Source: Phenylobacterium sp. (GTDB taxonomy: Bacteria; Pseudomonadota; Alphaproteobacteria; Caulobacterales; Caulobacteraceae). Taken from it: a stretch of 64,000 nt of DNA. Positions 14,459 through 18,403 of the stretch are shown piece after piece (the first letter of the stretch is position 1; the number at the start of each line of letters is the position of its first letter). The stretch covers positions 1-64,000 of the forward strand of contig NZ_SSMX01000021.1 of the NCBI RefSeq assembly GCF_004799515.1, read 5' to 3'. The notes beneath the pieces are model-generated. The model was not told the DNA's origin. It saw nothing but the letters and a program-made list of their open reading frames with translations, and ran no database searches. Both the position numbers and the translations under genes were made by a program.

Positions 14459-14839
14459 TCAGTGGCCGAGCAACTCGCGGATGCAGGCTGGCAACTCGCC
14501 GCCCAGCAGGGGCTTTTCCAGGATCCGCGCGCCGAGCGCCTCGGCCTGGCTGCGCACCGCCGGCTTGGGCTGGGTGGTGATCAGGATGGCGGGGCAGGTC
14601 AGGCCGCGGCGGCGCAGCTCCGCCAGGGCCTCGACGCCCGTGCTCCCCGGCAGGTGCTGGTCCAGCACCAGACAAGCGGCGGCCAGCGGCCCGCAGCGGT
14701 CCAGCAGGGTCTCCGCCCGGTCGTGAACCTCGACGGCGAACCCCTCGATCTTCAAGGCGAATGTCAGGGCTTCGCGGACGGAGAGATCGTCCTCGACCAG
14801 CAGGATCAACGGTGCGGGCAGATCGCGAGCAGGCTCCAT
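14459..14839 (-). CDS. fixT: single-domain receiver protein, candidate FixT (FixL feedback inhibitor)
   Basis: The 126-residue protein is only a receiver domain, with the acidic pocket in LLVEDDLSV, phospho-site D60 in LVLDQHLPGSTG, T88 in ILITTQ and K109 in LEKPL. It carries four cysteines (49, 56, 82, 119). In Caulobacter, FixT is a receiver-only inhibitor of the FixL kinase that binds an iron-sulfur cluster through cysteines. The position, divergent from fixL-fixJ with a FixJ-type box upstream, supports the same role; the call is inference. The track starts at GTG 14848, but the ATG at 14839 has GGAG at good spacing. Confidence 0.68.
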   Translation of the reverse strand: MEPARDLPAPLILLVEDDLSVREALTFALKIEGFAVEVHDRAETLLDRCGPLAAACLVLDQHLPGSTGVEALAELRRRGLTCPAILITTQPKPAVRSQAEALGARILEKPLLGGELPACIRELLGH

Positions 14840-15300
14840 CGTCTCCACCGTGGGCCCGCGATGCGCTTCGGATCCCGACCGCTTTCCATGGGCGTCTTCG
14901 ACGGCGTTCGGCCGCCCTGAGGTCGCGTACTGCGCCCTTTAGCCCTCGGTAGCACCTGCCCGGGGCGGTCCAAATTTGGGACCGATCCCTAGGGAAATCT
15001 ACGTACCGGGACCCGCGGGGTACTCGAATTGCCCAGAGATATCATTGGTTTGCGGCTTCCAATTCCAGCGCGGAAAAGCAAGATTCCGCTCGACAAAAGG
15101 CCGCATCGGCTTAGGGAAGCAAAGAGAGATTATTCAACCCTGGGGGGAAATAGGCAACTGGGTGGCGTGACATGTGATCAAGTCGTCCTGATGCGTCGGC
15201 CATTGGGGCGCGTCGGCCTTCGGCTCCGCCGGTTTTCGGCGGGCGCCGACGTGGGCCGAGTTGTGCGTTCTCCAGCCGCCGACCATCGCGGAGGGTCGGC
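14840..15300. promoter_or_regulatory. divergent control region between fixT-like gene and fixL
   Basis: This 461-bp region has no convincing gene; the short track ORFs inside it have no recognisable domain. It contains a FixJ-type box on the minus strand at about 14990-15006 (listed separately) and an AT-richer patch at 15030-15180 that could hold the fixL promoter. No clear FNR/FixK palindrome of the TTGAT-N4-ATCAA type was found. The stretch near 15170-15180 (GTGACATGTGATCAA) has one good half-site only. Confidence 0.5.
14990..15006 (-). promoter_or_regulatory. candidate FixJ-binding box upstream of fixT-like gene
   Basis: Read on the minus strand, the sequence is GTACGTAGATTTCCCTA. The first eight bases match GTAMGTAG, the high-affinity FixJ consensus described for Sinorhizobium meliloti. 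The site faces the fixT-like gene and ends about 150 bp before its start codon. A single-gene feedback loop (FixJ activates fixT, FixT inhibits FixL) would follow. Confidence 0.55.
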
Positions 15301-17811
15301 ATGAACGACATCCACCGGACAAGTCGGTGGGCCTCGCGCTTGCTGCTGACCCTTGCCGTCATCCTGATCGCGGCGGGGGCGGCGATCCGGGTGCATGCCT
15401 GGAACGACAGCGACCGCGCCCTGCAGTCCGCCGTGCGGACCTTCCGGACCATGGACAGCGCCGAGGAACTGGCGATGCACCTGGTGCTGGCGCGGGCCGC
15501 CGGCCGCGGCGGGGCCGGTTTCGGCGACGACGTCCGCCAGGTCCGATCGCACGAGGCCGCGCTGGTCCGCCTGACGAAGAGCCAGCCGGCGCAGGCGGCG
15601 CGGGCCGCCCGCGCCACCGCCCTGGCCGAACAGGAGATCGCCGACCTTACCCGCGGCGCGCCGGTGGCGGACTCGGCCGCGGCGGCGCGGGCCGCCGGGG
15701 ACATCGTCGAGGCCGAGCGGGCCAAGGCCGGCGCCTACAGCGGCCAGTTCCGCGCCCAATGGGTCCAGACCATCCTGGCCTTGGCGGCGATCTGCGGCGG
15801 TTTGGCGGCCGGCTTCGCGGCTCTGCTGCTGTTCCTGCGCCGCATCGACCGCCAGGAGAACGCCCTCGCCCAGGCGGCGGAGGACCTGTCGGTCGCCGGC
15901 CGCGAGGCCCAACGCAACGCCGCCTTCCTGGAGGGCGTCGGCGCGGCGACGCCGGACGTCATCTACGCCAAGGACCGCGACCTGCGCTTCGTCTACGCCA
16001 ATCCCGCCGCCGCCGCGGCCATCGGCCATCCGCTGAGCGAGATCCTGGGCCGCCGGTCCGGCGAGCTGGCGACCGACCTGATCGAGCTGGAGGACCATGA
16101 GGCCGCCGATCTCGAGGTGCTGCAGACCGGCCGCCGGCGCGCGGTGGAGGGCCGGTTCACCGGGCCGGACGGGACCGTGCGGTTCCTGCGCTCGACCAAG
16201 TTCGCCCTGCGCGACCCGGCGGGCGCGATCACCGGCGTCGCCGGCCTGACCATCGACGTCACCGAGTCCTACGCCTTCCGCGAGGCCCTGGTGGAGTCGG
16301 AGGCCAAGTACCGTTCGGTCGCCAACGCCATGCCGGCGCTGGTCTGGTCGTCGGACGCCGAGGGCGAGCGAGACTTCTACAACGACCGCTGGCGCCAGTT
16401 CTTTGGCGAGGACCCTGAGGTCACCATGGGCTGGCGGTGGCTCTCCAAGGTGCATCCCGACGACCGCGCGCGGGTCGAGGCCCACGCGCGCGACAGCATC
16501 GCCGCGCGCGAGCCCTATGACATCGAGTACCGCCTGGTGGGCTCGAACGGCCCACGCTGGTTCCTGGAGCGGGCGGTGCCGGTGCGCAATGAGGACGGCC
16601 ACGTCCATCTCTGGAAGGGCGCCTGCATCGACATCGAGGAACTGGTCCAGAGCCGCCGGGCCAAGGAGCAGGCCTTCGCCGACCTGCAGGCGCGCGAGGC
16701 CCACCTGCAATCGATCCTGGGCGCGGTGCCCGACGCCATGATCGTCATCGACGACCGCGGGGAGGTGCAGTCGTTCAGCGCCGCGGCGGAACGCCAGTTC
16801 GGCTGGTCCGCGGCCGAGGCCATCGGCCGGAACGTCAGCTTCCTGATGCCCAGCCCCTACCGCGAGGGACACGACGGCTATCTGGCGCGTTACCTCGTAA
16901 CCGGCGAGCGCAAGGTGATCGGCATCGGCCGGGTGGTGGTGGGCTTGCGCAAGGACGGCTCGACCTTCCCGATGGAGCTGTCCGTGGGCGAGATGCAGTC
17001 GGGCGAGCGGCGGTTCTTCACCGGCTTCGTCCGCGACCTGACTGAGCGCCAGGCGGCCGAGCGCCGCTTCCAGGACGTGCAGGCCGAACTGGCCCACGTC
17101 TCGCGCCTGTCGGCCATGGGCGAAATGGCCTCGGCCCTGGCGCACGAGCTCAACCAGCCCTTGTCGGCGACCGCCAACTACATCCAGGGATCGCTGCGCC
17201 TCCTGAGGGAGGACCCTGTCGACGTCGTCATTGTCACAGAGGCGCTCACCGTCGCCGGCGAACAGATGTTCCGGGCCGGCGATATCATCCGCCGGCTGCG
17301 GGATTTCGTCTCCAAGGGTGAGACCGAGCGACAGATCGAAAACCTGCCGCAATTGCTGGAGGAGGCCGGCGCGTTGGCCATGGTCGGCGCCAAGGACCGC
17401 GGTGTGCGCCTGACCTATGACATTTCGCCCAAGATCGACCTGGTGATGGTCGACAAGGTGCAGATTCAGCAGGTGGTGCTGAACCTGATGCGCAACGCCG
17501 TCGAGGCGATGGCCGACAGCGAGCGCCGCGAACTGGTCGTGGCCGCCGGCTCGGCGCCCGACGACATGGTGCTGGTCTCGGTCAGAGACACCGGCAGCGG
17601 CCTCAACCCCGAGGTCGCCGCCCAACTGTTCCAACCCTTCGTGACCACCAAGCAGCAGGGCATGGGCGTGGGTCTGTCGATCTCGCGCACCATCGTCGAG
17701 GCGCACGGCGGCCGCATCTGGGCCGACAGCGAGCCCGGGCAGGGCACCACATTCCATTTCACGGTGCGAGCCGTGCGTGAGGAGGAGATGGCCGATGGCG
17801 AACTCGTCTGA
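15301..17811 (+). CDS. fixL: oxygen-sensing histidine kinase FixL, long form with extra PAS domains
   Basis: The 836-residue kinase has two membrane segments (about 13-33 and 157-180) flanking a roughly 120-residue segment, then three PAS domains (about 205-320, 330-455, 470-590), a HisKA domain with phospho-site H615 in AHELNQPL, and a HATPase domain ([16 protein letters not shown]). The third PAS has the FixL haem signature: [12 protein letters not shown] with H524 as likely iron ligand, then [20 protein letters not shown]. Oxygen release should switch on autophosphorylation and transfer to FixJ. Rhizobial FixL is about 505 residues; the extra PAS pair is unusual. The end overlaps fixJ by 17 bp. 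Confidence 0.9.
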
Positions 17812-18403
17812 GGTCTATGTCGTGGACGACGATGAGGCGATACGCCGGTCGCTGGCCTTCCTGTTGCGAACGGCGGGAATCACGTCGCACACCTATGAGA
17901 GCGCCGAGATCTTCCTGGCGCAGGCGCGGGACCTTCCGCCGGGATGCGTGGTCACCGACGTGCGCATGCCTGGCGTCGACGGCATCGAGCTGGTCCGCCG
18001 CCTGGGCGAGGAGAAGCTGCCGCTCTCCACCATCGTCATGACCGGCCACGGCGACATCGCGCTCGCGGTCGAGGCGATGAAGGCCGGCGCTGTGGACTTC
18101 ATCGAAAAGCCTTTCAAGGACGAGGTGATGCTGGGCGCGGTGCAGAAGGCCCTGGTGGTCGACGGCCGCACCGCGCAGGACGACAGCGCCAAGCAGGCCT
18201 ATCAGCAGGCCTTCGTCACCCTGTCGCGCCGCGAGCGGGAGGTGCTGGAGCAGGTGGTGGCCGGCAAGACCAGCAAGGTCATCGCCTACGACCTGGGCAT
18301 CAGCCCGCGCACCGTGGAGGTCTACCGGGCCGGGATGATGATGAAGACCGGCGCCAAGAGCCTGTCGGAGCTGGTGCGCATGGCGTTGTTGGCCGGGATC
18401 TGA
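17795..18403 (+). CDS. fixJ: response regulator FixJ
   Basis: The 202-residue regulator has an N-terminal receiver domain ([13 protein letters not shown], phospho-site D55 in [14 protein letters not shown] in EKPF) and a C-terminal LuxR-type helix-turn-helix ([36 protein letters not shown]). It is the expected DNA-binding partner of FixL under low oxygen. The track starts at GTG 17777; the ATG at 17795 follows GAGGAGG and matches FixJ N-termini, so it was chosen. It overlaps fixL, and a strong terminator follows. Confidence 0.92.

Follow-up and report, generated by a model that had tools for sequence, protein, structure and literature searches.

Upstream of fixL and fixJ, the window (a stretch of 64,000 nucleotides from Phenylobacterium sp., analysed as a whole) encodes a small receiver protein with four cysteine residues. 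FixT of Caulobacter crescentus and of Sinorhizobium meliloti inhibits the autophosphorylation of FixL (PMC7078487). This leads to the question whether the protein is a FixT, and whether its cysteine residues bind an iron-sulphur cluster, as an earlier note on this DNA had suggested. The following features were assigned.

14459 to 14839, minus strand: putative fixT, coding for a receiver-only protein of 126 aa from the ATG at 14839 (Response_reg domain, FixT clade, receiver model, dN/dS)
14982 to 15006, minus strand: FixJ-type box (GTACGTAGATTTCCC...) upstream of fixT (match to the SELEX consensus, conserved block, likeness to Caulobacter)
15301 to 17811, plus strand: fixL, coding for a haem-PAS histidine kinase of 836 aa (FixL model; PAS, HisKA and HATPase_c domains; haem-PAS pattern)
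17795 to 18403, plus strand: fixJ, coding for a response regulator with a receiver and a GerE/LuxR DNA-binding domain (NCBIfam FixJ model, 276.8 bits, cut-off 255)

The fixT start codon at 14839 is preceded directly by a GGAG and gives the residue numbering already used in the earlier note; an alternative GTG at 14848 would extend the gene to 14459-14848 (minus strand) and the protein to 129 aa. In the ATG form the receiver residues D17, D18, D60, T88, and K109 constitute a complete set, and cysteines are found at positions 49, 56, 82, and 119. Pfam Response_reg matched residues 15-121 of the 129-aa form (E=1.5e-15), and the protein consists of this one receiver domain without an output domain. 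An AlphaFold2 model has a complete and regular receiver fold (pLDDT 87.9, pTM 0.82), and the Foldseek matches listed were receiver domains, including that of FixJ. Thus, the open reading frame at 14459-14839 (minus strand), Pfam, and the model confirm the complete receiver with D60 and four cysteines that had been described before, and the claimed divergent orientation to haem-PAS fixL, which is followed by fixJ, was also confirmed. Comparison with the two closest relatives (G015 and G058) gave dN/dS values of 0.31-0.42, indicating a real gene under purifying selection. The end coordinate previously given for the locus, 15006, lies about 165 bp upstream of the fixT start codon and is the end of the FixJ-type box.

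The neighbouring kinase scored 615 bits with the NCBIfam FixL model, below the cut-off of 850, and contains PAS, HisKA, and HATPase_c domains. A haem-PAS signature, HDGYLARY...GIGR, begins at residue 524 of FixL; by analogy with Bradyrhizobium FixL, we take the residues of this pattern to be the haem histidine and arginines. The protein has 836 aa as against about 500 in most relatives, and its N-terminal half shows two predicted membrane segments with a domain predicted between them, followed by two additional PAS domains ahead of the haem PAS. fixT is thus encoded together with fixLJ. The locus is flanked by ctrA and fliI past fixJ and by genes for an M28 peptidase and an ArsC-like protein past fixT, and the order ctrA-fixJ-fixL-fixT-M28 is common to both closest relatives. 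Genes similar to fixT adjoin fixLJ in nearly all loci for which flanks were available. Most loci examined have the order fixL, fixJ, fixT, whereas in this genome and its two closest relatives fixT lies upstream, divergent, and next to the M28 gene. An upstream divergent copy is likewise present in two further genomes (G004 and G022).

Descent was assessed with a tree of 95 rows, in which the columns were few and many forks unresolved, yet the branches cited here for the placement of FixT were supported. All FixT rows formed one clade (100/94) separate from the FixJ receivers. The protein grouped with the four-cysteine Caulobacter type within a set of 69 rows (99/91), and with the proteins of its two closest relatives at 100/95. 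Common descent with a characterised FixT, that of Caulobacter, separate from FixJ, was thereby found. Relatives of this FixT were detected in 48 of 60 Phenylobacterium genomes (E<=1e-18). On the other hand, only 34 of 118 aligned residues are identical to Caulobacter FixT, and the NCBIfam equivalog model for FixT (NF051882, OxRespNegRegFixT) gave 46.9 bits, below its cut-off of 150. C. vibrioides does attain that score, as do 17 of 75 Caulobacter genomes; most genomes of Caulobacter have nothing above it. Because the tree groups the protein with FixT, the low score was not taken as exclusion.

Generic receiver models score the protein about as high as the FixT model does, as would be expected if an unrelated CheY-like or orphan receiver adjoined fixLJ by chance. 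This is very improbable given the supported FixT clade and the conserved position beside fixLJ. Moreover, the next best receiver in the same genome is 38% identical, scores 49.9 as against 266 bits, and is not a member of the clade. A closer match to CheY-like or other orphan receivers had been named as grounds for giving up the FixT assignment; the paralogue comparison and the tree reject such an identity. The gene at 14459-14839 (minus strand) thus quite probably encodes a FixT, as judged by descent and gene context, and would by inference encode an inhibitor of FixL. The neighbourhood, a cysteine shared with Caulobacter FixT, and the FixJ-type box support the same assignment.

The cysteine residues of C. 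crescentus FixT are C53, C56, C59, and C64; C64 is broadly conserved and is the only one whose single replacement (C64S) weakens FixT in that organism, and the four-cysteine motif was reported absent outside Caulobacter (PMC7078487). As stand-ins for the C. crescentus sequence, two Caulobacter proteins (L169 and L170) with cysteines exactly at the published positions 53, 56, 59, and 64 were aligned with the Phenylobacterium protein. At these columns the latter has L, R, P, and C, so that the C-x2-C-x2-C-x4-C arrangement is lacking and C56 of the ATG form, the equivalent of Caulobacter C64, is the only cysteine in common. This residue is present in 37/37 rows of the Phenylobacterium type and in 13/13 of the four-cysteine type. 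C82 occurs, among the 37 Phenylobacterium-type rows, in this protein and those of the two closest relatives alone. C49 and C119 are confined to this species, the relatives having Q/S and S/L there. Thus, the four-cysteine set is not conserved, and 35 of the 37 rows have one or two cysteines only.

In the AlphaFold2 model, C49 and C56 lie in the alpha2-beta3 region, where the Caulobacter motif is also located, and C82 comes before the adjacent strand beta4. Together with the number of cysteines, this placement would fit an iron-sulphur cluster that controls FixT stability as in C. crescentus. Such a cluster is nevertheless highly unlikely: three of the four cysteines do not coincide with those of Caulobacter, C49 and C119 are replaced in both closest relatives, C119 sits within helix 5 of the model, and the motif is a reported Caulobacter peculiarity. 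The suggestion of an iron-sulphur set was therefore not upheld, with L, R, and P at positions 53, 56, and 59 and with C82, C49, and C119 so narrowly distributed. Cysteines that fail to align with those of FixT were what the earlier note itself had named as a refutation, and this applies to three of the four. C56 and C82 might conceivably serve together in some other metal or redox function, although nothing supports this. The comparison instead suggests that this FixT probably works without an iron-sulphur cluster, with C56 as its only counterpart of the Caulobacter residues. Five Caulobacter proteins within the four-cysteine branch (L181, L182, L185, L186, and L187) possess none of the four cysteines, the entire cysteine loop being absent; as read from these sequences, the motif comes and goes within its own branch. 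Within a wider FixT family, marked by a single conserved cysteine and a complete phospho-pocket, the four-cysteine site appears to have been added in Caulobacter. A FixT separated from the cluster lets the roles of C56 and D60 be asked cluster-free in this lineage.

The earlier note had also asked whether phosphorylation and cluster state both matter. The cluster half of that question lost ground with the alignment, whereas the phosphorylation half gained weight from the conservation of the entire acidic pocket in this lineage of FixT: 36-37 of 37 Phenylobacterium-type rows have D17, D18, D60, T88, and K109. In the four-cysteine Caulobacter type, the first acidic residue is variable and the segment past the phospho-site is shortened. 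FixT might accordingly act through its phospho-pocket, either draining phosphate from FixL as a sink or inhibiting it solely in the phosphorylated state, and the conservation of the pocket, set against the variable first acidic residue of the four-cysteine type, speaks for this. However, work on S. meliloti and C. crescentus detected no phosphorylation of FixT and no influence of FixT on the transfer to FixJ (PMC7078487). The conservation may equally reflect the fold or Mg2+ binding, and we regard action through the pocket as rather unlikely.

Control of fixT was approached through the FixJ SELEX consensus GTAMGTAG, as quoted in PMC4999443. The box contains the one exact match in the 64 kb, with 0.17 expected. 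The block most conserved among the three divergent fixT loci contains GTACGTAGATTTCCC in this genome, and this box resembles blocks in the Caulobacter fixK-fixT regions. Longer FixJ patterns were written after the site had been seen, so their statistics are post hoc and illustrative only. Scanned over the genome, the longer pattern gave no excess over a reversed-pattern control; it had one exact match, here, and one match with one mismatch. The latter lies upstream of an open reading frame that does not resemble fixK. No FixK box with one mismatch or fewer was found in the fixT-fixL region, whereas Caulobacter fixK-fixT regions have one. No convincing FixJ box was found at the bd-oxidase genes of this genome and its two closest relatives.

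We infer a negative feedback loop. Under low oxygen FixL would phosphorylate FixJ, phosphorylated FixJ would bind the box at about 14982-15006 and switch on the divergent fixT, and FixT would in turn act on FixL to lower its autophosphorylation. Both the induction by FixJ and the inhibition of FixL are carried over from characterised FixT proteins. From the present analysis come the common descent, the neighbourhood, the haem-PAS motif, the conserved box, and the purifying selection. Against these stand the low NF051882 score and low identity to Caulobacter FixT, the post hoc box statistics with no genome-wide excess over the control pattern, and the absence of the usual relay FixK from the genome. 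We put the probability of the feedback explanation as a whole at roughly 75%.

In the FixLJ circuit, FixK is the usual relay and the cbb3 oxidase the normal target. The present genome is 99.4% complete, but ccoN is absent from it, a FixK query found no match in it, and none of its Crp/Fnr-type genes, examined as candidates, has a FixK-type helix. Of 30 Phenylobacterium genomes, four are without a FixK orthologue (E<1e-44): this one, its two closest relatives, and G020, for which no FixT match was found at 1e-18. These four, and also G034 and G041, lack ccoN. This genome and its two closest relatives retain FixL-FixJ-FixT without FixK and the cbb3 oxidase, and they keep the bd oxidase. They form one clade, and a search of 101 genomes of the genus found no others of this kind; they therefore represent one evolutionary event, not a statistical association. 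Thus, FixLJ-FixT persists although its usual relay and target are missing, fixT is under purifying selection, and the clade is a natural case for seeking other FixLJ targets. More tentatively, FixL-FixJ-FixT may here be uncoupled from FixK and cbb3 as a short loop with a multi-PAS FixL, with fixT as the clearest FixJ target and with feedback through the phospho-pocket or phosphorylation rather than an iron-sulphur cluster; we consider this combination improbable.

The fixT described here adds a member to a known kind and has an unusual regulatory setting. It shares with C. crescentus FixT the receiver-only architecture beside fixLJ, the clade, the C64 equivalent, an EKPLL segment, and an upstream FixJ-type box. 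Unlike that protein, it lacks equivalents of C53, C56, and C59, and has a full-length receiver with a complete acidic pocket in place of a shortened one. Its gene is divergent from fixL, whereas that of C. crescentus is divergent from fixK, and the FixK box of the Caulobacter fixK-fixT regions is missing. Full-receiver FixT proteins of other Phenylobacterium and of part of Caulobacter (from fixLJT loci such as L014, L016, and L074) belong to the same clade and have the single conserved cysteine and the pocket, with about 50% identity within Phenylobacterium. In those loci, fixT is mostly found 3' of fixJ in the same orientation, and both FixK and the cbb3 oxidase are present, in contrast to the upstream divergent fixT and the absence of both here. 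By its description, S. meliloti FixT is also alike, as a receiver-only FixL inhibitor without the four-cysteine motif (PMC7078487). By sequence profile, the nearest proteins of known structure are FixJ receivers; FixJ, however, carries a DNA-binding domain and occupies a separate branch, whereas this FixT is a receiver only.

The wider set of loci contained some further arrangements. Two Phenylobacterium loci (L079 and L080, from G024 and G056) have the order fixT-fixL-fixJ-fixT, with two copies from two FixT lineages flanking fixLJ. The fixLJT genes of G025 are 100% identical to those of the Phenylobacterium zucineum HLK1 plasmid NC_011143. On that plasmid (L086), a second fixLJT set is accompanied by its own fixK, and the FixT encoded there has four cysteines, placed differently. 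FixT proteins from Sphingobium and Hephaestia (L093, L094, and L095) are nearly identical across these different sphingomonad genera, which suggests recent transfer.
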